This document shows positions 3,857 through 55,000 of a stretch of 64,000 bases of DNA, in pieces. How positions within the stretch are numbered: the stretch's first letter is position 1; each line of letters begins with the position of its first letter. The notes under the pieces are model-generated. The model did no database searches and was not told the DNA's origin. It was given only the letters and a program-made list of their open reading frames with translations. The DNA is taken from positions 496,001 through 560,000 of the forward strand of contig NZ_JBEWXT010000001.1 of the NCBI RefSeq assembly GCF_040538665.1. The letters are read 5' to 3'. Source of the stretch: Aureibaculum sp. 2308TA14-22. Its GTDB lineage: Bacteria > Bacteroidota > Bacteroidia > Flavobacteriales > Flavobacteriaceae. Both the position numbers and the translations under genes were made by a program.

Positions 3857-5167
3857 ATGAAGACTATAGATAGTATTCCAATTTCTAAAATGCAACGTGC
3901 CTCAAAGTTGGTAAAAACAGGAGCCAAGGTTGGTGTTAATTACCTGAAATATTATGGTGATAAAATTATTAATACTGAAGTAGTTGCAAAGGAAAAATTA
4001 AATCAGAATAACGCTAATGATATTTATAATGGCCTCAAACAATTAAAAGGTAGTGCTTTAAAAGTAGCTCAAATGTTGAGCATGGAAAAGAATATTTTAC
4101 CAAGAGCATACGTAGAGAAATTTTCATTGGCTCAGTTTTCTGTACCACCATTATCACCGCCATTAGTTATTAAAACGTTTAAGCAGTATTTTGGCAAACA
4201 TCCTAATGAAATTTTTGATGAATTTAATGCTACTTCTGTGAATGCAGCGAGTATTGGTCAAGTCCATAAAGCAGTGAAAGATAATAAAGAATTGGCCATA
4301 AAAATCCAGTATCCTGGTGTAGCTCAAAGCATTAGCTCAGATTTAACTATGGTCAAACCTATAGCAATGAGCATGTTTAATATAAAGGGTAAAGATTCTG
4401 ATAAGTATTTCAAGGAGGTTGAAGATAAGTTAATTGAAGAAACGGACTACACATTAGAAGTAAAACAGAGTAAAGCTATGGTTAATGCGTGTAAACATAT
4501 ACCAAATTTGCTTTTTCCTAATTATTATGAAAAATATTCTTCACAGAGAATTATTACAATGGATTGGATGCATGGTGAGCATTTGTCGGAATTTGTAGCT
4601 CATAATACTAACCAAGCAATATCTAATCAATTAGGGCAAGCCTTATGGGATTTTTATATGTTTCAAATCCATAAATTGAAAAAAGTACATGCAGATCCAC
4701 ATCCAGGTAATTTTTTAATTAATAAACAAGGGCAATTAATTGTAATTGATTTTGGTTGTATAAAAGAAATTCCTCAAGAGTTTTATATTCCTTATTTTGA
4801 GTTAGCTGAAAAAGAGAATATTAACAATCCGATCTTATTCAAGGAAAAACTTTTTGAATTAGAAATTTTGAGAGAAGATGATTCAGAAGAAGAAATTGAA
4901 TTTTTTACGCAAATGTTTCATGAAATGTTGAGTCTGTTTACGCAACCTTTACATCAAGAGGTGTTTGATTTTTCTAATTCTGAATTTTTTGAAAAGATAG
5001 GACAATTAGGCGAACGATACTCTAAAAGTACTGAATTAAGAAAAATGAATGGAAACAGAGGGTCTAAACATTTTATTTATATAAACAGGACATTTTTTGG
5101 CTTATATAATTTAATGTTCGATTTAAAGTCGAAAGATGTAAAAATTTTTAATTTCGAAAATTTATAA
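3857..5167 (+). CDS. AarF/ABC1/UbiB kinase-like protein
   Basis: A 436-residue member of the ABC1 (UbiB/COQ8/AarF) atypical kinase family; members support quinone or isoprenoid lipid metabolism. Visible motifs in order: an altered KxGQ motif (ALKVAQML, Gly replaced by Ala), an Ala/Ser-rich loop NAASIGQVHKA, the ATP-binding Lys in AIKIQYPGV, the Glu-containing EETDYTLEV, the catalytic HADPHPGN and the metal-binding DFG in VIDFGCIKEI. The C-terminal transmembrane segments found in UbiB are not evident. It shares an operon with a TetR-like regulator and a flavin reductase (the next gene's ATG overlaps its TAA as TAATG), which suggests a redox or quinone-linked role. The actual substrate is unknown. 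Confidence 0.85.
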   Translation: MKTIDSIPISKMQRASKLVKTGAKVGVNYLKYYGDKIINTEVVAKEKLNQNNANDIYNGLKQLKGSALKVAQMLSMEKNILPRAYVEKFSLAQFSVPPLSPPLVIKTFKQYFGKHPNEIFDEFNATSVNAASIGQVHKAVKDNKELAIKIQYPGVAQSISSDLTMVKPIAMSMFNIKGKDSDKYFKEVEDKLIEETDYTLEVKQSKAMVNACKHIPNLLFPNYYEKYSSQRIITMDWMHGEHLSEFVAHNTNQAISNQLGQALWDFYMFQIHKLKKVHADPHPGNFLINKQGQLIVIDFGCIKEIPQEFYIPYFELAEKENINNPILFKEKLFELEILREDDSEEEIEFFTQMFHEMLSLFTQPLHQEVFDFSNSEFFEKIGQLGERYSKSTELRKMNGNRGSKHFIYINRTFFGLYNLMFDLKSKDVKIFNFENL

Positions 5168-7634: not shown

Positions 7635-8882
7635 GTGAAAGATTTATTTGAAAGAATAATTAAAGATAAAGGCCCGTTAGGTAAATGGGCCGAACAAGCA
7701 GAAGGATATTATGTTTTTCCTAAATTAGAAGGGCCTATCTCAAACAGAATGGGCTTTAACGGAAAAAAGGTTATTACTTGGAGTATTAATGATTATTTAG
7801 GTTTAGCTAATCATCCTGAGGTTATAAAAGCAGATGCAGAAGCAGCAGCCGAACATGGTATGGCCTACCCAATGGGTGCCAGAATGATGTCAGGTCACAC
7901 TCCTTTTCACGAGCAATTAGAGCAAGAATGTGCAGATTTTGTTAATAAAGAAGCAGCATATTTGGTTAATTTTGGCTATCAAGGTATGGTTTCTGCCATA
8001 GACGCCCTAGTAACCAAGCACGACGTTATTGTTTATGATATTGATACTCATGCATGTATTATTGATGGTGTTCGTTTGCATGCGGGCAAACGCTTTGTAT
8101 ATAAGCACAATGATGTAGAAAGTTTAGAAAAAAACTTAAAAAGGGCAACTAAAATGGCAACTGAAAATGGTGGCGGAATTTTAGTAATATCTGAGGGTGT
8201 TTTTGGTATGCGGGGTGAGCAAGGTAAACTGAAAGAAATAGCAGCTCTTAAGAAAAAATACAATTTCAGATTTTTAGTGGATGATGCTCACGGATTTGGC
8301 ACCTTAGGTGAAGGTGGTAGAGGTGCAGGTGTTGAGCAAGGCGTACAAGATGATATAGATGTTTATTTTGCCACATTTGCAAAATCAATGGCAGGCATTG
8401 GTGCATTTTTTGCTGCTGATAAAGATATTATTCAATTTTTACAATATAATATGCGTTCGCAAATGTTTGCAAAATCATTGCCAATGGCAATGGTTAAAGG
8501 AGCATTAAAACGTTTAGATATGTTACGTACAATGCCAGAGCTTAAAGAAAAACTTTGGGAAAATGTAAATGCATTGCAATCAGGTCTTAAAGAGCAAGGT
8601 TTTGATATTGGTAATACAAACACATGTGTAACACCAGTATTTTTAAAAGGTGACATACCTGAAGCCATGGCTATGGTCAACGATTTAAGAGAAAATCATG
8701 GTATTTTCTGTTCTATTGTAGTGTATCCAGTTATTCCAAAAGGAATGATTTTACTTAGAATGATTCCTACAGCGGCACATACTTTAGAAGATGTAAAAGA
8801 AACCATTATTGCATTTTCTGCTATAAGAGAAAAATTAAGAGATGGTGTTTATAAAAAGATTGCCGAGGCCATGCTAGGATAG
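7635..8882 (+). CDS. SPT-like alpha-oxoamine synthase, probable cysteate fatty acyltransferase
   Basis: A 415-residue PLP enzyme of the alpha-oxoamine synthase family (serine palmitoyltransferase, KBL, BioF). Visible features are WSINDYLGLANHP near the N-terminus, GARMMSGHTPFHEQLE, the DDAHGFGTLGEGGRG loop with the PLP-ring Asp, and the Schiff-base Lys250 in FAKSMAG. The start is GTG 7635; the overlapping ATG at 7633 runs into a stop. Flavobacterial proteins of this type were assigned as cysteate-C-fatty acyltransferases, the committed step of the sulfonolipid capnine that supports gliding motility; the cysteate synthase-like gene just upstream fits. Serine palmitoyltransferase for ordinary sphingolipids is the main alternative, because substrate choice cannot be read from sequence by eye. 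Confidence 0.8.
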   Translation: MKDLFERIIKDKGPLGKWAEQAEGYYVFPKLEGPISNRMGFNGKKVITWSINDYLGLANHPEVIKADAEAAAEHGMAYPMGARMMSGHTPFHEQLEQECADFVNKEAAYLVNFGYQGMVSAIDALVTKHDVIVYDIDTHACIIDGVRLHAGKRFVYKHNDVESLEKNLKRATKMATENGGGILVISEGVFGMRGEQGKLKEIAALKKKYNFRFLVDDAHGFGTLGEGGRGAGVEQGVQDDIDVYFATFAKSMAGIGAFFAADKDIIQFLQYNMRSQMFAKSLPMAMVKGALKRLDMLRTMPELKEKLWENVNALQSGLKEQGFDIGNTNTCVTPVFLKGDIPEAMAMVNDLRENHGIFCSIVVYPVIPKGMILLRMIPTAAHTLEDVKETIIAFSAIREKLRDGVYKKIAEAMLG

Positions 8883-8900
8883 AAAATACAAATTTCAATA

Positions 8901-8942
8901 AAAAATCCCAAATTCCAATTGCTAGAGTTTGGGATTTTTTTT
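8901..8942 (+). terminator. Terminator after the SPT-like gene
   Basis: Stem aaaaatcccaaa / tttgggattttt separated by 15 bases, with a continuing T run, 20 bases after the stop codon. Confidence 0.75.
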
Positions 8943-8993
8943 GTTTATAATTTTCTAATATAATTGTATCTTAGGGATTTAAATAATCAATAA

Positions 8994-9338
8994 ATGGCAT
9001 ACGATGAACACTTAGGAGAAAGAATAAGTGCAATTATAAAATCTAAAAATGTAGCGTTTTGCAGTAAAAAAATGATGGGCGGGCTGGTTTTTATGGTCAA
9101 CGATAAAATGACTTGTGGTATTCATATCGACAAAAAATATGGAGATAGTTTGTTAATGGCAAAAATTGGAACGGAAGCTTATGAAAAAGAAATAACAAAA
9201 GAAGTTAGCTTACCTATGGATTTTACAGGCAGACCCATGAAAGGGTATATTTTTGTTACTCCTAAAGGTTTTGACTTGGAATCTGATTTAGAATATTGGA
9301 TAGATAAAGCCTTGGATTTTAATAAAACGTTGAAATAA
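8994..9338 (+). CDS. TfoX/Sxy N-terminal domain protein
   Basis: A 114-residue protein matching the stand-alone TfoX N-terminal domain: it opens with AYDEHLGERI, then KKMMGGLVFMVNDKM (the family's K-x-M-F/M-G-G core), a central GDSLLMAKIG and the C-terminal W-x-x-KALDF helix. In gammaproteobacteria TfoX regulates competence; the stand-alone domain in Bacteroidota is a small soluble protein of unknown role. The VOC gene begins 9 bases after its stop, so the two are likely co-transcribed. Confidence 0.8.
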   Translation: MAYDEHLGERISAIIKSKNVAFCSKKMMGGLVFMVNDKMTCGIHIDKKYGDSLLMAKIGTEAYEKEITKEVSLPMDFTGRPMKGYIFVTPKGFDLESDLEYWIDKALDFNKTLK

Positions 9339-9347
9339 TCACTTCAA

Positions 9348-9722
9348 ATGCAATACACCCCAAAATCAATCAGGCCGTTTATTGGTGCTATAGATTTCAC
9401 AATTTCCAGAAATTTCTATTTAGATCTTGGATTTGAAGAATTTAAAATCTCACCTAAAATGGCGTATTTTAAAATGGGCGATTTTGGGTTTTATTTACAA
9501 GATGCTTATGTAAAAGATTGGGTAGATAATACCATGCTGTTTTTGGAAGTAGAAAATTTAGAAAAGCACTTAGAAGTAATAACAAATCTAAATTTAACCA
9601 AGAAGTATCCAACTGTGCGGATATCCAATATTGCAGAAAACGATTGGGGAAATGAATTTTTTATACATGACCCATCAGGAATATTATGGCATATCGGCGA
9701 ATTTAAAATGGAAAAGCAGTAA
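9348..9722 (+). CDS. VOC (glyoxalase/bleomycin resistance-type) family protein
   Basis: A 124-residue single-chain VOC protein with paired beta-alpha-beta-beta-beta modules: SIRPFIGAIDFTISRNFYLDLGF at the start (seen around residues 7-29), DFGFYLQDAY, then DNTMLFLEVENLE and a C-terminal FFIHDPSGILWHIGEF. The usual metal Glu of glyoxalases may be the Glu in HIGEF, while the N-terminal His is not clear. It follows the TfoX-like gene by 9 bases and ends 1 base before the tsaD stop on the other strand. The ligand is unknown. Confidence 0.8.
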   Translation: MQYTPKSIRPFIGAIDFTISRNFYLDLGFEEFKISPKMAYFKMGDFGFYLQDAYVKDWVDNTMLFLEVENLEKHLEVITNLNLTKKYPTVRISNIAENDWGNEFFIHDPSGILWHIGEFKMEKQ

Positions 9723-9723
9723 A

Positions 9724-10752
9724 CTACATTTTCATTCTGGCATTCGCGGTTACATCTAAACCATCAAACTGTCCATCTAAAAATTTGTAATAGCCTACAA
9801 TACCTATCATAGCTGCATTATCCATGGTATATTCAAATTTTGGAATGTACGTAGTCCAATCATATTTATTTTCAGCTTCTTTTAGTACTTTCCGTATTTC
9901 AGAATTTGCAGAAACACCTCCAGCAATGGCAATATGTTTAATTCCAGTTTGTTTTACGGCTTTTTTTAATTTATCCATTAAAATTGAAGTAATTGTAAAT
10001 TGAATAGATGCACAAATATCATTCAGGTTTTCTTCTATAAAATTGGAATTCTCTTTTACATTTTTTTGAATAAAATATAAAATAGCCGTTTTTAATCCAC
10101 TAAAACTAAAATCTAATGGGTTTTTAGTTTTTGGTTTTGTAAAGACGTAAGCATTTGGGTTTCCTAATTGTGCATATTTATCTACCAAAGGGCCTCCTGG
10201 ATATGGCAATCCCAATATTTTAGCGGATTTGTCAAAAGCTTCACCAACGGCATCATCGAGGGTTTCACCAATAACTTCCATAGAAAAAAAATCAGTTATT
10301 TTAACTATTTGAGTATGTCCACCACTTATGGTTAAACATAAAAAAGGGAAAGGTGGTTTTTGTTGACTTTCGTCATCAATAAAATGAGCTAAAATATGTG
10401 CTCGCATATGGTTTACTCCAATCAGCGGAATATTTAAGGCCAAAGACATTGATTTGGCAAACGAACTTCCAACTAGTAATGACCCCATCAATCCTGGACC
10501 TTTAGTAAAGGCTATAGCATTTAATTGTTTTTTGTCAATTCTAGCTTTTTTAAGAGCTTGATGTACAACAGGTACAATATGTTGCTGATGTGCTCTTGAA
10601 GCCAATTCAGGAACTACACCTCCATATTGCGAATGAATTTCTTGATTTGCCACAACATTACACAACACTTTGTCGTTGTGTAAGATAGCAACCCCTGTAT
10701 CATCGCAAGATGATTCTATCGCTAAAATATATGTTGAATTATTTGTTGTCAA
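9724..10752 (-). CDS. tsaD: tRNA N6-adenosine threonylcarbamoyltransferase TsaD
   Basis: A 342-residue Kae1/TsaD protein that transfers threonylcarbamoyl from TC-AMP to A37 of ANN-decoding tRNAs with TsaB and TsaE. It shows AIESSCDDTG at 11-20, the metal-binding His115 and His119 in NHMRAHILAH, LTISGGHTQIV, GEAFDKSAKILGLPYPGGP, and the C-terminal DNAAMIG. Length is normal. It is divergent from tamB with 127 bases between start codons, an arrangement I recall as conserved in Flavobacteriia. It is a housekeeping, usually essential gene. Confidence 0.95.
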   Translation of the reverse strand: MTTNNSTYILAIESSCDDTGVAILHNDKVLCNVVANQEIHSQYGGVVPELASRAHQQHIVPVVHQALKKARIDKKQLNAIAFTKGPGLMGSLLVGSSFAKSMSLALNIPLIGVNHMRAHILAHFIDDESQQKPPFPFLCLTISGGHTQIVKITDFFSMEVIGETLDDAVGEAFDKSAKILGLPYPGGPLVDKYAQLGNPNAYVFTKPKTKNPLDFSFSGLKTAILYFIQKNVKENSNFIEENLNDICASIQFTITSILMDKLKKAVKQTGIKHIAIAGGVSANSEIRKVLKEAENKYDWTTYIPKFEYTMDNAAMIGIVGYYKFLDGQFDGLDVTANARMKM

Positions 10753-25115: not shown

Positions 25116-26525
25116 TCACTTTATGCTACTTTCTAGATTCTCAGATTTGCTCCTCATTTTTTCAAGAACTACTTTATAATCAGGATTGTTTTTTAAATTT
25201 TCTAATTGATTAGGGTCTTTTTGTAAATCATATAAATACTCATATGGCGGATTTTGTTCATAATAATTGGCATATACATACTGTTGCCCATGAATTCCAA
25301 CATATTTTGGTAGTTTATCATGTTCCATTCTATGTTCGATAAGAAAACTATCTCGCCAAGTTTCAATTTTTTCATCTTTTAAAATAGGTAGAAGACTTTC
25401 TCCTTGATAATGTTGAGGTATAGAAACTCCAGCAAAGTCAAGTATAGTTGCCGGAATATCAATATTGAGGGCTGTTTTATTAGATTTCTTTAAAATAACA
25501 TTAGTCGGCATTCTCGGATCATAAATTATTAAAGGAACTCTTAATGATTCTTCGTAATGCGTCCATTTACCTGCAAAACCTCTGTTACCCATATAATAAC
25601 CATTATCTGAAGAGTAAATAATTACAGTATTTTCATCTAGATTTTTTTCTTTTAAAGTTGCAATTACCCTATTCATTACATTGTCATATCCACTAATCAT
25701 GCGGAAATATGCTCTTAAATTAGATTGGTATTTTTCTTCGGTATCCCACCGCCAAAAATAACGTTCTCTGTTTAACGAATTTTTTAAAAATTCAGGATGA
25801 TTTTCATAAATTTCTGAATCTGATAATTTAGGTTTTGGCATTTCTACTTTTTCATACAGTTCAGAAACCGCTTTTGGGTATGGGTAATGCCCTTCGTTAC
25901 CGGGAGTTAAATTTCCATCAACTGCATGTACAGCATTAAAACTTATGGAGAGACAAAAAGGTTTTTCAGACGTTTGATTTTTAATAAATGTTACGGCATC
26001 ATCACCACGAATTTCAGCTGAGTGTCGCATACTTCCATCAGCAAGTTTTTGAAAATGTGGTGTGTTTTTAAATGTAGGCTTAAAAAAATCAAACATTTCT
26101 GAAATTTTCTGGTCTTGCATTTCTAGTTTTACGCCAAGTTTGCCTGTAAAACCAGTAACGTATCCTGATTTTTTCAGCAAATAAGGATATGAATTATTGA
26201 TAAACTCTTTTTTGAGTGGATTTTTACCGAACGTATAATTATGTTTACTTTCATATAATCCTGTAAGAATAGAAGCTCTACTTGCTGCACAGATAGAAGT
26301 GGTTACATATGCATTTGTAAATGTAATTCCACCTTTAGCAAGTTTGTCAACTGTTGGCGTTTTTACAATGGGATGACCTGCAGATGAAATAACATCATTG
26401 CGTTGGTCGTCAACTAATACAAATAAAATATTGGGTCTTTCTTCTTTATTTGTAGTATTCTTTTTGCATTGACTAGATACTACCAGTAGTATTGAATAAA
26501 AGAGTATTCTAAATGTATTTTTCAT
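25116..26525 (-). CDS. Sulfatase lipoprotein
   Basis: A 469-residue family S1 sulfatase. A lipobox ends at Cys20 (VVSSQC). The metal-binding NILFVLVDDQR has Asp39-Asp40, and the formylglycine motif is Cys79 in CAASR, which fits the C-x-[P/A]-x-R rule and therefore needs a maturase encoded elsewhere. Further motifs are GYVTGFTGKLGV, AVHAVDG and VIIYSSDNGYYMG with GKWTHYEESLRVPLIIYDP. The C-terminal RHS-like EYLYDLQKDPNQLENL is typical of enzymes acting on carbohydrate sulfates. No SusC/SusD, glycosidase or lyase gene is adjacent, so the substrate is open. A repeat-like palindrome lies just upstream of its start. Confidence 0.88.
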   Translation of the reverse strand: MKNTFRILFYSILLVVSSQCKKNTTNKEERPNILFVLVDDQRNDVISSAGHPIVKTPTVDKLAKGGITFTNAYVTTSICAASRASILTGLYESKHNYTFGKNPLKKEFINNSYPYLLKKSGYVTGFTGKLGVKLEMQDQKISEMFDFFKPTFKNTPHFQKLADGSMRHSAEIRGDDAVTFIKNQTSEKPFCLSISFNAVHAVDGNLTPGNEGHYPYPKAVSELYEKVEMPKPKLSDSEIYENHPEFLKNSLNRERYFWRWDTEEKYQSNLRAYFRMISGYDNVMNRVIATLKEKNLDENTVIIYSSDNGYYMGNRGFAGKWTHYEESLRVPLIIYDPRMPTNVILKKSNKTALNIDIPATILDFAGVSIPQHYQGESLLPILKDEKIETWRDSFLIEHRMEHDKLPKYVGIHGQQYVYANYYEQNPPYEYLYDLQKDPNQLENLKNNPDYKVVLEKMRSKSENLESSIK

Positions 26526-26529
26526 ATTT

Positions 26530-26642
26530 GGTCACTTGTCATAGCAACTTTAGTCAGCGATAGCTGAATGAATTCCAACGGTTAGTGTATGCGTCGTGGT
26601 GACCGAATGGGAGCCATAATCGACATACACATTGTTCACCAC
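26530..26642. repeat. Degenerate palindromic element between sulfatase and corA
   Basis: GTGTATG (26585-26591) pairs with CATACAC (26624-26630), and GTGGTG (26596-26601) pairs with CACCAC (26637-26642), a crossing arrangement. GGTCAC (26530-26535) also mirrors GTGACC (26599-26604). The GTGTATG ... CATACACATTGTT ends resemble those of the two 130-bp elements near 28.7 and 29.5 kb, so it may be a reduced relative. Confidence 0.35.
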
Positions 26643-26654
26643 TCGCCTTTTTTA

Positions 26655-27710
26655 TCATAGCCATTTCTTTCTCTTAAAGTAAATTAACAAACCGACAAAA
26701 ATAACGACTATAAATCCCCAGAATGCAAAGTATCCATACTTCCATCGAAGTTCAGGAATGTTTTCAAAATTCATTCCGTAAATCCCTGCTAAAAAAGTTA
26801 AAGGGATAAAAATCGTTGCTACCAGTGTAAGCATTTGCATGACTTGATTCATTTTAAAACTCACCTCTGAAATGTAGAGATCTTGTAAGCCGTTCAACAA
26901 ATCCCGAAAAGACTCCACCGTATCCATTACTTGAATAGTGTGATCATACAAATCTCTAATAAATACAGGAGTATCTTTTTCAACTAATGGGCTATCTGTT
27001 TTAGCAAACCGCCCTATGGCTTCTCTCAGAGGAGCAATTGATTTTCGTATGGTTAGCAACTCTTTTTTGAGTCGGTGAATTGCGGATTTATTATTTGAAT
27101 CTTGGTTGTCAAGCATGCGATCTTCAAGTGATTCAATTTCTTCACCTATATCTTCCAGCAAAAGAAAGTAATTGTCTACAATTACATCTATGAGTGAATA
27201 AGCAAGGTAGTCCGCACCTTTTTGTCTTATTCTACCTTTCTTACTTTGAATCCGTTTTCTTACAGCTTCAAATAAATCACTTTCAGTTTCTTGAAATGAA
27301 ATCACGAAACCCTTTCGAAAACATATTGCAACCTGCTCAATGGTTATCTTTGTTTCAGTTTTGTCAAAGGCTAAAGCTTTGATAATTATAAAAATACCAT
27401 TCTCATATTCTTCACATTTTGGTCGCTGGTATGTATTAGATACATCTTCGAGAATTAAAGGATGGATATTGAAGGTGTGGCCAAGTTTTTCAATTAAGAC
27501 TGTATCATGAACTCCCCGTATGTCATACCAATCAACTTCCTCTTCAGGAGATTGGTGTAAGATGATTTTGTCATGATTACTAAGTGTTTTTTCTTCGAAT
27601 AATTCATTATCATATTGGATATAATGAATTTGGACTTTTTCCATTTTTTTATTTCCAGTAAACACAACAGAACCAGGAGGTAATCCGATTTTATTTCTTT
27701 TTTTGCTCAT
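26655..27710 (-). CDS. corA: CorA-type magnesium/cobalt transporter
   Basis: A 351-residue inner membrane transporter. The cytoplasmic alpha/beta N-domain and long stalk helices are followed by two C-terminal membrane helices (MLTLVATIFIPLTFLAGI and YFAFWGFIVVIFVGLLIYF) separated by the signature YGMN. I take ATG 27710 (MSKKRNKIGLPPGS) as the start, leaving 10 bases after the MscS stop; a longer frame would overlap mscS by 32 bases. It forms an operon with the upstream mscS, both envelope ion channels. The pair is bounded by palindromic elements on each side. Confidence 0.92.
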   Translation of the reverse strand: MSKKRNKIGLPPGSVVFTGNKKMEKVQIHYIQYDNELFEEKTLSNHDKIILHQSPEEEVDWYDIRGVHDTVLIEKLGHTFNIHPLILEDVSNTYQRPKCEEYENGIFIIIKALAFDKTETKITIEQVAICFRKGFVISFQETESDLFEAVRKRIQSKKGRIRQKGADYLAYSLIDVIVDNYFLLLEDIGEEIESLEDRMLDNQDSNNKSAIHRLKKELLTIRKSIAPLREAIGRFAKTDSPLVEKDTPVFIRDLYDHTIQVMDTVESFRDLLNGLQDLYISEVSFKMNQVMQMLTLVATIFIPLTFLAGIYGMNFENIPELRWKYGYFAFWGFIVVIFVGLLIYFKRKKWL

Positions 27711-27720
27711 AGAATTCAAT

Positions 27721-28575
27721 TCAGATATTAGTAGGATTATTCTTGTACACAAGGGTTCTATGCGGGAACGGTATCTCTATTCCTTCATTATCAAATCTCT
27801 TTTTAATAAGCTCAAATAATTCACATTCCATTTTAAAAGCATCTACCGGATCTTTAGCCCAGGCCCAAGCTCTTAGATTAACTGATGATTCTCCAAAACC
27901 TATAATTCTAACTGGAGCTAATTCCTCGCCCTCCATCAATTGTTCCTCTGTTCTTGGGTCAATATGAAGGGGGTGTTTTAGTACTTCTTCTTTGAAGATG
28001 GCCTTTGCTTTTTTAAAATCTGAATCATAGCTTATTCCTATTTCAATCAATTTACAAATTCTCTCATCCCCATAATTTGAATTCACTAATATTTCATCAC
28101 TTATTAATGAATTTGGAATGATAATCCTTTTGTTTTCAAAATCCCGAATAACGGTATGTCTCAAAGTAATATCTTCCACGACGCCCCTCAGTTCTCTTAG
28201 GTTTACTCTGTCATTTACTCTGAACGGTTTAAAGATAATTATAAAAACACCACTAATAATATTACTCAGAGCATGCTGAGAAGCAAAGCCTACGGAAACT
28301 GCCAAGATGCCCGCACCTGCTAAAAGAGAACTTGCTAGTGCTCGCAAATTTGGCATTGAGTAAATAGCTATACTAAACCCGATGATATAAATTATTGCAT
28401 TGATTGCATGACGCAAGAATTTATAATTTGTTGGATCGTTTTTCATTTCTTCCGTCGAACGACGAATTAGTCGTTTGAAAAATCGATTGATCAAAAAAGC
28501 TACAACAATTGTTATCAGTAGGATACAAATAAAAATTCCGATGTATTCAATGCTGCTTAGTATTTGTTCTTTCAT
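27721..28575 (-). CDS. MscS-family mechanosensitive channel
   Basis: A 284-residue small-conductance mechanosensitive channel. There is an N-terminal membrane helix (YIGIFICILLITIVVAFLI), a second at about 53-70, and the pore-lining helix with small residues (ASSLLAGAGILAVSVGFASQ) leading into the beta domain start SGVFIIIFKPFRVNDRV. The C-terminal alpha/beta vestibule ends EGIEIPFPHRTL. It opens under membrane tension to release solutes in osmotic downshock. It precedes corA by 10 bases. A second MscS paralogue lies at 47.8 kb. Confidence 0.9.
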   Translation of the reverse strand: MKEQILSSIEYIGIFICILLITIVVAFLINRFFKRLIRRSTEEMKNDPTNYKFLRHAINAIIYIIGFSIAIYSMPNLRALASSLLAGAGILAVSVGFASQHALSNIISGVFIIIFKPFRVNDRVNLRELRGVVEDITLRHTVIRDFENKRIIIPNSLISDEILVNSNYGDERICKLIEIGISYDSDFKKAKAIFKEEVLKHPLHIDPRTEEQLMEGEELAPVRIIGFGESSVNLRAWAWAKDPVDAFKMECELFELIKKRFDNEGIEIPFPHRTLVYKNNPTNI

Positions 28576-28620
28576 TGTTGATTATTTATCTAACTTTTTT
28601 TGGTGGTGCGGAACGGTTTT

Positions 28621-28751
28621 GTGTATGGTTAGTTCCGTGTTTCAGCAACTAATTTAGTAAACAAAAACGAACGCGAGAAAATTCCGAAGGAATTTTCCAA
28701 ATAAACAACGACCAAAGCAATTAATTATACACGTTGTTGTAGCACGTTTTT
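28621..28751. repeat. 130-bp palindromic element, copy A
   Basis: The copy begins GTGTATGG (28621) and ends TTATACACGTTGTTGT (28725-28740) plus AGCACGTTTTT. The outer GTGTAT (28621-28626) is complementary to ATACAC (28727-28732). A central stem GAAAATTCC-GAA-GGAATTTTC occupies 28677-28697, 56 bases from the left end. Copy B at 29467 has the same ends, length and stem position, with compensating base changes in the stem. It lies between mscS and a pair of small genes. No open reading frame is present. Confidence 0.8.
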
Positions 28752-28754
28752 ATT

Positions 28755-29045
28755 TTACGCAACACTCAAAATATTTATCAATCCTCCAATGACAATTAAA
28801 AACAACATTGTCAAGTAACTTCGCTTGATTGAAATTTTTCCATTTATTAATTTTATTCCAAAATATAAGTTAATACAACTTAATGTAATATTTGAAAATA
28901 TAACCCAGTTCGGATAGATAAAGAGGAAAGCGATGTTTGGATTTTGATAATCTATGTAAAGGGAAATTATATGATATAGCCAATAAAGAGATAAAGAAGA
29001 TTGAATTAAGCCCAGAATTATGTGTATATTCTTTTTCATCTCCAA
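28755..29045 (-). CDS. Hypothetical small membrane protein
   Basis: A 96-residue protein with three hydrophobic segments (IHIILGLIQSSLSLYWLYHII; FLFIYPNWVIFSNITLSC region; SYLTMLFLIVIGGLINIL), so it should be an integral inner membrane protein. No family recognised. It starts 3 bases after the stop of the 129-residue gene and ends 4 bases from the right end of element A, so the two genes travel as one unit between elements A and B. Its composition is very AT-rich. Confidence 0.6.
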   Translation of the reverse strand: MEMKKNIHIILGLIQSSLSLYWLYHIISLYIDYQNPNIAFLFIYPNWVIFSNITLSCINLYFGIKLINGKISIKRSYLTMLFLIVIGGLINILSVA

Positions 29046-29048
29046 TTC

Positions 29049-29438
29049 TTAACTCAACTTTTCATTTTCTAATTCCGAAAATTTTTGTTTGTCAGTTGGA
29101 TTTACATCAATCAATTCAAATCGGTTTTTATCCAAAACATTGAAATCAACCAGACTTAAATAAAGGTCAACAACATTTCGGTCAATCATAATTTTTCCAC
29201 CACCAGCCCAATGTCGGTCAGTTCCATTTTTCTTAATTCCAGAAACCCAATATTCCTCTCCAGTCTCAATATCATAATGATTACCACCTTCAATTCCCAT
29301 TGCATTGGCGTTTTTCAAGGCCTTGCCATTAAAATACACAGTTCTTCCAGATTTAGAGAATTCCGCTATTCCAATCCAAGCTGGTCCATTGTCTCCAAAA
29401 CCGCTTTTCAATTCAATATATTTTAATTCAGGTTTCAT
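29049..29438 (-). CDS. Conserved hypothetical protein (often misnamed DXP synthase)
   Basis: A 129-residue soluble protein, KPELKYIELKSGFGDNGPAW at the N-terminus, then IGIAEFSKSGRTVYFNGKAL, YDIETGEEYWVSGIKKNGTDRH and WAGGGKIMIDRNVV. I recall close relatives scattered through Bacteroidota, frequently carrying the misleading label 1-deoxy-D-xylulose-5-phosphate synthase; nothing in it resembles that much larger thiamine enzyme. Many WxG and polar motifs suggest a small globular domain. The start codon lies beside the left end of element B and the gene pairs with the small membrane protein downstream. Confidence 0.65.
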   Translation of the reverse strand: MKPELKYIELKSGFGDNGPAWIGIAEFSKSGRTVYFNGKALKNANAMGIEGGNHYDIETGEEYWVSGIKKNGTDRHWAGGGKIMIDRNVVDLYLSLVDFNVLDKNRFELIDVNPTDKQKFSELENEKLS

Positions 29439-29466
29439 AGTTCCTCAAATGTGCTACAACGTGTTC

Positions 29467-29596
29467 GTGTATGGCTTGTTGCGTTGGCGAGAACTAAGTT
29501 AACAAAAGAAACCGAACCAGTAGGAAAATCCGCTAGGATTTTCCGAGTACACACAAAACAAGCAATTGGTTATACACGTTGTTGTACAACGTTTTT
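29467..29596. repeat. 130-bp palindromic element, copy B
   Basis: Same ends as copy A: GTGTATGG at 29467-29474 and TTATACACGTTGTTGT at 29570-29585, finished by ACAACGTTTTT. GTGTAT pairs with ATACAC (29572-29577), GCTTGTT (29474-29480) with AACAAGC (29557-29563), and the central stem GGAAAATCC-GCTA-GGATTTTCC is at 29523-29544, again 56 bases from the left end. ACAAC just outside the left end (29456-29460) matches GTTGT at the right end. No open reading frame belongs to it. Confidence 0.8.
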
Positions 29597-29610
29597 AATC
29601 AGTTTCTTTG

Positions 29611-30354
29611 TTAGAAAGCTCCTGTATGTATTGCTTTTCTATATATCCATTTAGAATTCTCTTTATAAAAAATAACATAGCAGGTATATCCGCAATTAGG
29701 ATCTCCTAAATATGTATAATGAAATATACCAGTATTATACTTCTCAGAGAATACAACTCTTGAAAAGCCCATAAATCCAATGTTTAAAATTGTGTCTTTT
29801 TTTCCATAACTTAATGGGTTGAAACCTCTTTTTCTTGCAGAAAATTTGGTTAGAAATTCTATTCCATCTTGTTCTATTAATTCCGTTTTTAGTTTTTTAG
29901 AATTTAATTCCGTTTTAAGATTTTTGATAAAATTGAACTCATTAGATAGAGTATCAAGATATTTTAAAATATAACCTCTATTATTCTCAATATTAAGAGA
30001 AGTTAATGAATCAGGAATCGTTACGAATTTCTTTATTGTATCTCTGTCTCTTTCAGATACAAGATAACGTTTTTCCATTCTATCGATTAGGACTGAATCC
30101 GCTTTTTTAGGTATTTTTCTAATTGGATGACAGTAATCTACTTTATAAATACTATCCAACATATTACTTATAATGTTATGTTCATCATCATAAGTTATAT
30201 TGCTTTCTAGTCTCGGTTCTAAAACCATTGCAATATTTTCTGGACTTTCTGAATATTTATTTTGGACATGAAAAAACAAAAAAATCACATAAGCCATTGC
30301 AGCAATTACAGCGAATGCGAAAACAAATATTAATATGTCTTTAGTTTTTCTCAA
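29611..30354 (-). CDS. Hypothetical membrane-anchored protein
   Basis: A 247-residue protein with one N-terminal membrane helix (ILIFVFAFAVIAAMAYVIFLFF) and a long polar, probably periplasmic domain. That domain holds a conserved-looking C-terminal block: GFMGFSRVVFSEKYNTGIF, YTYLGDPNCGYTCYVIF with two Cys, and WIYRKAIHTG. No family recognised. The start is TTG 30354, which abuts the palindrome of element C (CAACATTTGAG on the minus strand); no ATG is better placed. The gene is bounded by element B downstream and element C upstream. Confidence 0.6.
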   Translation of the reverse strand: MRKTKDILIFVFAFAVIAAMAYVIFLFFHVQNKYSESPENIAMVLEPRLESNITYDDEHNIISNMLDSIYKVDYCHPIRKIPKKADSVLIDRMEKRYLVSERDRDTIKKFVTIPDSLTSLNIENNRGYILKYLDTLSNEFNFIKNLKTELNSKKLKTELIEQDGIEFLTKFSARKRGFNPLSYGKKDTILNIGFMGFSRVVFSEKYNTGIFHYTYLGDPNCGYTCYVIFYKENSKWIYRKAIHTGAF

Positions 30355-30400
30355 ATGTTGTACAACATATGTATAACCGCATTGCGGTTATATCCGTTAT
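30352..30400. repeat. Short palindromic element, copy C
   Basis: Contains the perfect 14-base palindrome ATGTTGTACAACAT (30355-30368) and a 9-bp stem TATAACCGC-ATT-GCGGTTATA (30372-30392), followed by TCCG. CTCAAATG next to it is shared with the left flank of copy B (ctcaaatgtgctacaac). A near-copy of the second stem recurs at 54976-54996. Confidence 0.75.
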
Positions 30401-30454
30401 AGTTGCAATATACAAATTCTGAATAATTGTTAAAAAAAAGTAAAAAAATTAAAG

Positions 30455-31261
30455 TTACGGTGCAGCATTTACAACCCCTAATGTATACAACTGTTCTAAC
30501 GTAGGTACTTCACTACCGCCTTCAGGTTCAAGAGTAATACCAAAAGCTTCTGACTCATTATTGTTGCCTAAGGCAAATACTTTGTTTTCGTCTTCGGTAA
30601 ATTGGTCTAATACACCAATGCTTGTTGGGGTAAGCGGATCCAATTTTAAAGACCAAACTTGATAGACCTTACCAGCGGGAGGGTCAGGTAGGCCTTGAAC
30701 ATCTACATATACTTGGTTGTCAGATTTGTTCCAATAGACCTTGGCATACGAATTTGGTGAAACGGTTTGCCCACCCAACGGAACTGCTAAAATGTCTTTA
30801 TCTCTAAGAATGGTATTTAGCTTTTTTGTCTCAGCCAAACTGGAATTGGCTTTAAAAATCTGTTCTTCTAATTGTTGTTTTTCTAGTTCAGCAGATTTTA
30901 ACTGTGTACTCAAATTGTTGTTTTGTACCATGGTCCAAATAAAACCACCTAATAACAGTACCGCAGCTGCCCAACCAGTGTAAGATAACCAGTTTGTAGA
31001 TTTTTTGGCTAACTGAACAACTTTGGGTTCGTTGGTATTTGCATCACTTATTTTGGCTTTAATTTTTTGAAATGAAGTGTTAGAAGTAGGGGCTGTTGCT
31101 GCGGTCAATTTTAGAACAGCAGCTTCTATCTCGGCAACTTCCTTGGCAATTTCAGGATGTTTTTGAACCATAGCAAATACCTCTCGGTTTTCTTTTTCAG
31201 AAAGTACACCAGCTACATAAAGCTCTAAAATTCCGGACGCTATGTATTCTTTAATTTCCAT
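30455..31261 (-). CDS. Anti-sigma factor (RskA-like)
   Basis: A 268-residue single-pass membrane protein. The cytoplasmic N-domain (about 1-75: EYIASGILELYVAGVLSEKE, EVFAMVQKHPEIAKEVAEIE) resembles the zinc-less anti-sigma domain of RskA-type proteins, followed by a membrane helix near 91-112 (YTGWAAAVLLLGGFIWTM), a coiled coil (STQLKSAELEKQQLEEQIF) and an extracytoplasmic RskA domain (LPDPPAGKVYQVWSLK, FGITLEPEGGSEVPT). It lies 2 bases after the ECF sigma gene, the standard pairing in which it holds the sigma factor until a signal releases it. Confidence 0.85.
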   Translation of the reverse strand: MEIKEYIASGILELYVAGVLSEKENREVFAMVQKHPEIAKEVAEIEAAVLKLTAATAPTSNTSFQKIKAKISDANTNEPKVVQLAKKSTNWLSYTGWAAAVLLLGGFIWTMVQNNNLSTQLKSAELEKQQLEEQIFKANSSLAETKKLNTILRDKDILAVPLGGQTVSPNSYAKVYWNKSDNQVYVDVQGLPDPPAGKVYQVWSLKLDPLTPTSIGVLDQFTEDENKVFALGNNNESEAFGITLEPEGGSEVPTLEQLYTLGVVNAAP

Positions 31262-54293: not shown

Positions 54294-54986
54294 CTAATTA
54301 CCGTTGTAGTCTTCATTTGCCCACTTTATTGTTGGTTTAATCCAATCATCTAAGGGTTTAAATAAAAATCCGTGACCCATACCTGTATTTAATTCAACCT
54401 CTTTGAAGTTCTCAATCTTGCAAGTCGAGTTTTGTTTTCTCTCGATAGCAGAAACTCCGTAAGGGTCAGATTTTTCATATATGTTTAGTATACTTCCGCA
54501 GTAGTTTATTTCAGGAATATTTTCAATATCGATATCTCTAAAACTTGCAATAAACACAAAATTCAGTTTGGGATTATTGGCTAGAGTCGAAACATATTGA
54601 GCAATATATCCACCTTTTGATGTTCCAACAACTGTTATTTTGTTTGGTTTAATTCCAATGGAAGTCAAGCTGTCAATTTGATTAACAACTCCTTGAGCGT
54701 ATTCTCTAGCATTTACATTACCATTTCTTTTTTCGCTGATAACTTCAAAGCCATTTTTTTCAAATGCATTTATTATTTCTAAATATTCAGTCCGTCCAAA
54801 TTCTGGATGCACTTCATTAAGTTCGTGCTCTTCAATAAAACGATTGTGAAGAAAGAAAATAAACCGATGATTATTTTTGTTTCCGCACGCAAATAAATTA
54901 GAAAACAATAGAATTCCGATTAGTAAGTTTGTTTTTATTGATTTAAGATTTTTCTCTAATAGCGGCCAACAACTGTATAACTGCAT
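54294..54986 (-). CDS. Alpha/beta-hydrolase-like lipoprotein
   Basis: A 230-residue protein with a hydrophobic segment ending in a lipobox at Cys34 (LLFSNLFAC), then an alpha/beta hydrolase fold: the nucleophile elbow is VVGTSKGGY (G-x-S-x-G), followed by FVFIASFRD, a possible acid in YEKSDPYGVS, and the His of TGMGHGFLFKP. The only usable start, ATG 54986, lies in the loop of the palindrome at 54976-54996, so the first dozen residues (MQLYSCWPLLEK) are coded by repeat sequence. The n-region is unusually long as a result. It is probably an esterase of unknown substrate and looks like a late arrival between katG and yqgE. Confidence 0.7.
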   Translation of the reverse strand: MQLYSCWPLLEKNLKSIKTNLLIGILLFSNLFACGNKNNHRFIFFLHNRFIEEHELNEVHPEFGRTEYLEIINAFEKNGFEVISEKRNGNVNAREYAQGVVNQIDSLTSIGIKPNKITVVGTSKGGYIAQYVSTLANNPKLNFVFIASFRDIDIENIPEINYCGSILNIYEKSDPYGVSAIERKQNSTCKIENFKEVELNTGMGHGFLFKPLDDWIKPTIKWANEDYNGN

Positions 54987-55000
54987 TGCGGTTATATCCT
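54962..55000. repeat. Short palindromic element, second copy of type C
   Basis: TATAACTGC-ATT-GCGGTTATA (54976-54996) plus TCC matches the element at 30372-30395 with one base changed (giving a G-T pair). It overlaps the 5' end of the hydrolase gene, whose ATG is in the stem loop on the minus strand. Confidence 0.7.

Follow-up and report, generated by a model that had tools for sequence, protein, structure and literature searches.

The DNA stretch analyzed here, hereafter the window, comprises 64,000 nucleotides (nt) of the genome of the marine bacterium Aureibaculum sp. 2308TA14-22 (contig NZ_JBEWXT010000001.1, positions 496,001 to 560,000). Its minus strand carries a small array of genes separated by related folded elements that resemble the attC sites of integrons, the systems that disseminate resistance genes, and the array begins with a site resembling the integron docking site attI. 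The order along this strand is the attI-like site D, a gene for 247 amino acids (aa), element B, genes for 129 and 96 aa, element A, mscS, corA and element C. Two genes that we take to encode a sigma and an anti-sigma factor precede site D, and a sulfatase gene comes last, after element C. Taken as a whole, the best reading of the sequence is that the window probably represents one loaded docking port of an integron-type system, which would use a non-IntI integrase and several docking sites. The individual features are:

30364..30412, minus strand: attI-like docking site D, head of the array; it shares the 31-base pattern of the site behind the integrase gene of the own genome (G000:C1:2369788)
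29611..30354, minus strand: gene of cassette 1, 247 aa, without Pfam or PADLOC match at the thresholds used
about 29458..29583, minus strand: attC-like element B (AAC to GTT), end of cassette 1, 121.1 bits
29049..29438, minus strand: first gene of cassette 2, 129 aa, without Pfam match; relatives lie between elements in other genera
28755..29045, minus strand: second gene of cassette 2, 96 aa, without Pfam match
about 28612..28738, minus strand: attC-like element A (AAC to GTT), end of cassette 2, 133.7 bits
27721..28575, minus strand: mscS-type channel gene of unit 3, Pfam MS_channel
26655..27752, minus strand: corA-type transporter gene of unit 3, Pfam CorA; open reading frame (ORF) as listed, with TTG start
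26577..26636, minus strand: short attC-like element C, 60 nt from AAC to GTT; match at 26567-26644 with 23.2 bits and an expect value (E) of 0.001, filters off
54968..54998, minus strand: second attI-like site of the window, one mismatch to the 31-base pattern

The first-pass annotation of this DNA had described elements A and B with an outer GTGTAT/ATACAC pairing and central hairpins; both exist as described, on the minus (gene-sense) strand. Element C, site D, the second site at 54968-54998 and a genomic integrase were beyond its list. A covariance model was built from 16 copies of the own genome; the scores of A and B (133.7 and 121.1 bits) are high by construction, because both belong to these 16 sequences. 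The next match in the window is element C, which is not part of the model, and all remaining window matches have E values of 0.45 or worse (filters off). The own genome harbors 31 elements according to the model, and blastn with element B retrieves 13 places, B included. The presence of copies in relatives, a check named in the annotation, was borne out by matches in 43 of 60 genomes at E 0.001 or better (53 candidates scored per genome; large counts are lower bounds). A scan of the phylum with eight candidates scored per genome provided matches in 73 of 395 genomes at E 1e-5 or better. The relative G030 contains arrays of 59 and 50 elements, and among the relatives with names, Flavobacteriaceae bacterium F08102 (L112) is the closest encountered. 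The orientation is uniform: 210 of 211 matches agree in strand with the other matches of their own locus.

Several observations accompany this survey. A 558-bp unit with identical ends recurs several times in the arrays of G030 (L091-L097), comparable to the repeated cassettes of large chromosomal integrons. Model-matched arrays are also found in another family of the phylum (L222 and L229 from G371 and G379), and a canonical IntI of G371 sits on a contig other than that of the array. On the Tenacibaculum finnmarkense plasmid CP116296.1 (L274), an A-like element adjoins a pair of genes annotated as IS91-type transposase and tyrosine recombinase, and precedes genes annotated as tssD and toxin-antitoxin.

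The ends of the units bear on the nature of the array. For each unit, we set the bases that follow the preceding GTT against those in front of its own AAC. In the first of two sets of loci, which omitted pairs more than 5 kb apart or with an AAC or GTT that could not be located, 156 of 171 units exhibit at least eight contiguous complementary bases (mean run 9.2) versus 2.9% of mispaired ends, and the matched positions amount to 6.42 compared with at most 2.96 in 2,000 permutations. A second set (131 pairs, 16 of them dropped with an end not located) showed complementarity over at least eight bases in 97 of 115 tested units versus 2.3% when mispaired. Within a single element, the ends, which are parts of neighboring cassettes, match poorly (7.4% of 189). 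In the window, start and own end pair over ten bases each in units 1 and 2; the start of unit 2, GTTGTAGCAC, is fully complementary to its own end, GTGCTACAAC. Own-end complementarity indicates circular cassettes with a crossover at GTT, as in integrons, and the elements present an R''-L''...L'-R' layout including the GTT where the crossover would take place. The longest ATG ORF lies on the array strand in 132 of 180 units, and the median distance from the stop codon to AAC is 14 nt.

The cassette reading of the annotation is accordingly strengthened by the unit ends, together with the model matches in relatives and the differing DNA behind one docking site (see below). It holds for units 1 and 2, but the mscS-corA unit, whose two ends are non-complementary, is not shown to be a cassette. 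The best homologues of its corA-type protein in other genomes are 44-47% identical (E 1e-100 or better). The remark that the elements deviate from the attC consensus proved right for GTTRRRY, which fits five of 115 unit starts; GTT itself is kept. A stretch beginning with GTTGGAATTCATTCAGCTATCGCTGACTAAAG follows two different elements of the own genome, namely element C (window about 26548-26579, minus strand) and the one at G000:C1:2194219 (L033, about 4348-4379, plus strand).

The fold of the elements is conserved by compensating changes, and it is written for one strand. Five L-box types illustrate this (GTGTAT/ATACAC, GTATAA/TTATAC, GGCTAT/ATAGCC, GTATAT/ATATAC and GTGTAA/TTACAC); L boxes could be located in 255 of 285 matches, and 175 have six of six pairs at one fixed offset. 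In an alignment of 150 of the 211 matches, fitted to the model, 97.3% of the cells are paired versus 83.7% after shuffling and at most 41.5% in slid versions, and cells with double changes number 221 compared with a shuffled mean of 47.9 (none of 500 shuffles as high). The compensating stem changes claimed earlier are thereby confirmed for the stems nearer the ends, which covary; the central hairpin is variable across the family. A test that allows variable spacers showed that, if G-T pairs are permitted on the bottom strand only, 183 of 236 distinct elements have a helix running unbroken from the L box inward for 12 bp or more; if they are permitted on the top strand only, none of the 236 does. 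When each strand is given its best offset, the helix is longer on the bottom strand in 218 elements, shorter in five and equal in 13. Folding energies calculated for DNA favor the bottom strand in 219 and the top strand in 15 of the 236. Individually folded window elements are less distinctive: element A is modest (z -1.7 in gene sense, -2.3 for the other strand), B reaches -3.1 and -2.8 with no margin between the strands, and C is not clearly better than shuffles (-1.0 and -0.8). We infer from the covariation and the strand asymmetry that the fold is under selection, and that this selection acts on the bottom strand. The mRNA carries the mismatched version, which makes a role at the transcript level unlikely.

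The statement of the annotation that no integrase is present applies to the window but not to the genome. A tyrosine recombinase gene at about 2.369 Mb (G000:C1:2369788) stands at the head of one array and is immediately followed by an attI-like hairpin. Locus L029 combines a recombinase gene (8676-9770), an attI-like site, which would work as attI, and eight model-detected elements, which brings together integrase, putative attI and cassette array as in a whole integron. Between two catalytic motifs, 31 of 35 array-type proteins have 64-67 residues versus 106 in each of 20 canonical IntI proteins. Of the other four, three Kordia rows had the motif search landing at a later place (29) and one row was masked; the aligned rows of all four are equally short. 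Not all of the 35 proteins adjoin a detected array (e.g., L151). This shortness means that the IntI-specific domain (I2 region) is absent and that the recombinase is not IntI; residues 210-245 of 2A3V are unmatched in the comparison, and four array-head proteins score 174-203 bits with TIGR02249, below its curated cut-off of 265 bits. The recombinase carries an extra N-terminal domain of about 80 residues, which found no match at E 0.1 among the PDB sequences and showed a suggestive, not significant, HARP/XPB-type match by Pfam and fold. Arrays behind the I2-less recombinase occur in several genera. Of 82 model matches at 56 integrase loci of named genomes, 80 are located on the integrase strand and downstream of the gene, one upstream and one overlapping, and the upstream DNA examined was more than twice as long as the downstream DNA. 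Galbibacter orientalis DSM 19592 contributes two of these loci. Repeat finding at four divergent integrase loci recovered GC-rich elements of the same layout at L154 and one short two-copy repeat each at L153 and L165; behind the integrase of L151 it found no repeat. The elements of L154 (Bacteroidetes bacterium RI_132) have the AAC...GTT layout with another stem sequence and lie behind a 584-aa relative of the integrase. At 23 of the 56 loci (L111-L167), less than 1.5 kb of contig is left behind the integrase, perhaps due to assembly breaks at arrays. Judged by position and association, the recombinase at about 2.369 Mb is most likely the enzyme of the system.

The units might alternatively be true integron cassettes that are moved by a canonical IntI supplied by other bacteria or by a mobile element, with the array-head recombinase having another job. 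With class 1 IntI, one site of the Polaribacter phage P12002L reportedly underwent recombination on its bottom strand and not on its top strand, and a second site of this phage failed (PMC9892861). Model-matched sites are located beside methyltransferase genes in the same phage; sites of this general kind may accordingly be usable by IntI. Canonical IntI proteins above the cut-off are present in 105 of the 395 phylum genomes, almost all outside the class of the window, and some of these genomes also hold model matches. Against this explanation, no canonical IntI above the cut-off was found in the 60 relatives, for which reason it was rejected as the enzyme, nor in any genome of the window's family among the 395. 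No model match was found at canonical IntI genes in seven stretches from six genomes, and in several genera the arrays stand behind the I2-less recombinase. We therefore regard the involvement of a canonical IntI as unlikely.

A second alternative is that the recombinase works on duplex sites in the manner of Xer or Cre, and that inverted binding sites give rise to the hairpin potential as a side effect. Sites of Xer- and Cre-like recombinases normally have dyad symmetry, and the enzyme, which lacks the IntI-specific domain, has a model closest to XerA. A double-strand mechanism predicts conserved bases, whereas the bases of the R box differ between cassettes yet are complementary within each, and the asymmetry of wobble pairs between the strands has no evident meaning for duplex DNA. 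It is thus an improbable explanation. That the elements, which are intergenic, hairpin-forming and multi-copy, are RNA structures (terminators, small RNAs) or a repeat between genes resembling miniature inverted-repeat transposable elements is hardly credible, given that Rfam has no match (gathering threshold for the whole window, permissive for 26400-30600), that positions forming G-T pairs on the bottom strand are A-C mismatches in the sense RNA, that all but one of the 211 matches share the strand of their locus companions, and that it is the unit between elements, not a target-site duplication around an element, to which the matching ends belong.

The integron-type reading receives its genome-wide dimension from the docking ports. 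A search with the 31-base attI-like pattern, allowing one mismatch, detected nine sites in the own genome and none with the reversed pattern as a control; five of 12 congeners have the pattern, as opposed to none of eight genomes from other families of the same order. One copy lies behind the integrase gene, a position that the attI-like site also occupies in the congeners G009 and, twice, G010. The other eight are located 15-192 bp from the stops of different genes, which presumably include gcvP-, murB-, yqgE- and asd-like ones. Seven of the eight head small arrays, among them site D at 30364-30412, where the crossover would fall on GTT 30366-30364, and eight of all nine sites are followed by a same-strand element at a distance of 747-1753 bp. 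Complementarity between the attI side and the own end was found for six of eight first cassettes, including that of the window over ten bases. The second attI-like site of the window (54968-54998), 15 bp behind a gene that looks YqgE/AlgH-like to us, is an empty or decayed port, as the model search found no element downstream of it. Four ports without integrase have an upstream motif in common with the integrase upstream regions, which suggests that they were left behind by loss of the integrase gene; cassettes may be expressed from the integrase-type upstream region that some ports keep.

The content of ports differs between relatives. The port behind a gene that we take to encode a proline dehydrogenase is covered by a 7,060-bp alignment of the congeners G007 and G010 with 94.8% identity, which ends ten bases past the GTT of the attI-like site. 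Beyond this end follow about 3.3 kb (G007) and 7.7 kb (G010) of mostly different DNA, and then a common distal stretch (97.7-98.2%) with one additional unit in G010. In two congeners, the arrays of one port contain copies of the gene-plus-port flank (L260, 7563-8070; L261, 14534-15006), as if a port had been duplicated into the array. For the window itself, the left flank is common with G007 up to position 30375, inside site D, where G007 has an apparently decayed copy, and the right flank is common with G008 from 24523 on. Between these flanks, G007 and G008 carry different DNA with a few model matches. In G002, the same flanking genes are separated by only about 600 bp, which means gain of the block elsewhere or its loss in G002. 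Nine of 299 genomes of the family, own genome included, have the 129-aa cassette gene, and in six of its ten other places it is situated between two elements (L172, L173, L174, L177, L178 and L180). Gain or loss of the enclosed DNA and copies bracketing genes elsewhere, both raised in the first-pass annotation, are thus indicated: the window block is absent or different in relatives, and the DNA behind one port differs between two of them.

On the basis of these genome comparisons, the following mechanism can be proposed. A cassette would comprise one or two genes and, behind them, a folded site. In the excised circle, base pairing between the two cassette ends would restore an R box of about 10 bp, with the crossover at GTT. 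The recombinase would join the folded, presumably single-stranded, bottom strand of the element to attI-like sites, and the choice of this strand would be written as G-T wobbles that pair on the bottom strand only. New cassettes would enter beside the attI-like site, either the one behind the integrase's own gene or one of the eight dispersed behind ordinary genes, which the enzyme would serve in trans.

Several results weigh against this interpretation. Excision or recombination was not seen. The two ends of unit 3 do not match, and complementarity over eight bases is missing in 15 of the 171 and 18 of the 115 tested units. The longest ORF lies on the opposite strand in 13 of 180 units, and 35 have no ORF of 60 aa. 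Five of 30 examined elements of the own genome, in two places, have no attI-like site upstream; no model match was obtained for the port of G012 or for 11 of the 33 integrase loci followed by 1.5 kb or more of sequence. Beyond the genus, the attI-like hairpin is uncertain: among 18 tested integrase loci, six have an inverted repeat that is reached by at most 3.5% of shuffles, and one of the six repeats is situated farther downstream than the attI-like site. The test of L boxes at a fixed offset is weak because spacer length varies (45 distinct pairs, mean 2.76 versus 2.26 permuted, the best of 2,000 permutations equaling the observed value). Element counts are not independent, because the elements share ancestry. 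In the comparison of G007 and G010, the variable stretch of G007 includes a further copy of 306 bp of the flank (90.5%), and that of G010 a related piece, which implies more than one event instead of a simple swap; one indel contains a hybrid element that homologous recombination could explain.

More tentatively, and at slightly less than an even chance, the system may constitute a separate Bacteroidota-wide integron lineage, characterized by an I2-less recombinase, bottom-strand folds, wobble-coded strand choice, a possible HARP/XPB-kind N-terminal replacement of I2 and one integrase for many ports. If so, the N-terminal domain, possibly of the HARP/XPB kind that reads branched DNA, may replace I2, and a single integrase serving many attI ports behind ordinary genes would imply that cassettes are stored and expressed at many chromosomal addresses. 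A single integrase with dispersed ports would extend the integron concept by a genome-wide layout. The I2 helix has been presented as the innovation that lets integron integrases use single-stranded hairpins and as present in no other protein (PMC7790495); an I2-less recombinase heading large cassette arrays makes this claim directly testable. For Bacteroidetes proper, from which only In0 elements had been known earlier, IntegronFinder 2.0 listed one complete integron, in Salinibacter ruber (PMC9024848), so that a large cassette pool may have been missed by surveys if our reading is true. Among openly licensed papers, we recognized no description of this system in the consulted literature on flavobacterial integrons, which is a weak negative, and found nothing relevant on several or solitary attI sites.

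By genome comparison the system looks integron-like, yet it turns out negative in two defining tests for IntI and two for attC. It shares with integron arrays the predominance of one orientation, the folded site at the cassette end, the presumed GTT crossover, the attI-like head and the better folded bottom strand (PMC2727003, PMC9024848), as well as an own-end complementarity of about 9-11 nt, the length over which the R boxes of attC pair (PMC2727003). IntI is defined by an extra domain (PMC9024848, PMC9668308) that the integrase described here lacks, and the R box is not GTTRRRY (5/115). The bottom strand of attC is chosen by extrahelical bases (PMC2727003); here, as judged in the L-box arm of 183 of 236 elements, a continuous bottom-strand L helix with wobbles takes their place. 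Further differences are that integrase and array point the same way and that several attI-like sites coexist with one array-head integrase in the own genome. Archaeal integrons likewise have attI immediately downstream of the integrase gene, but their integrases carry the additional IntI domain (PMC9668308). I2-less members have already been noted in the 'integron-like' subgroup of tyrosine recombinases, in which the insertion is not fully conserved; the consulted part of that study links no insertion-less member to cassette arrays and calls the insertion essential for integron function (PMC8138268). The window array resembles clusters of attC sites lacking integron-integrases (CALIN) in having no integrase nearby, but it is headed by an attI-like site in a genome with an integrase elsewhere. 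From XerA, XerC and XerD, the recombinase is distinguished by its extra N-terminal domain of about 80 residues and its association with cassette arrays.

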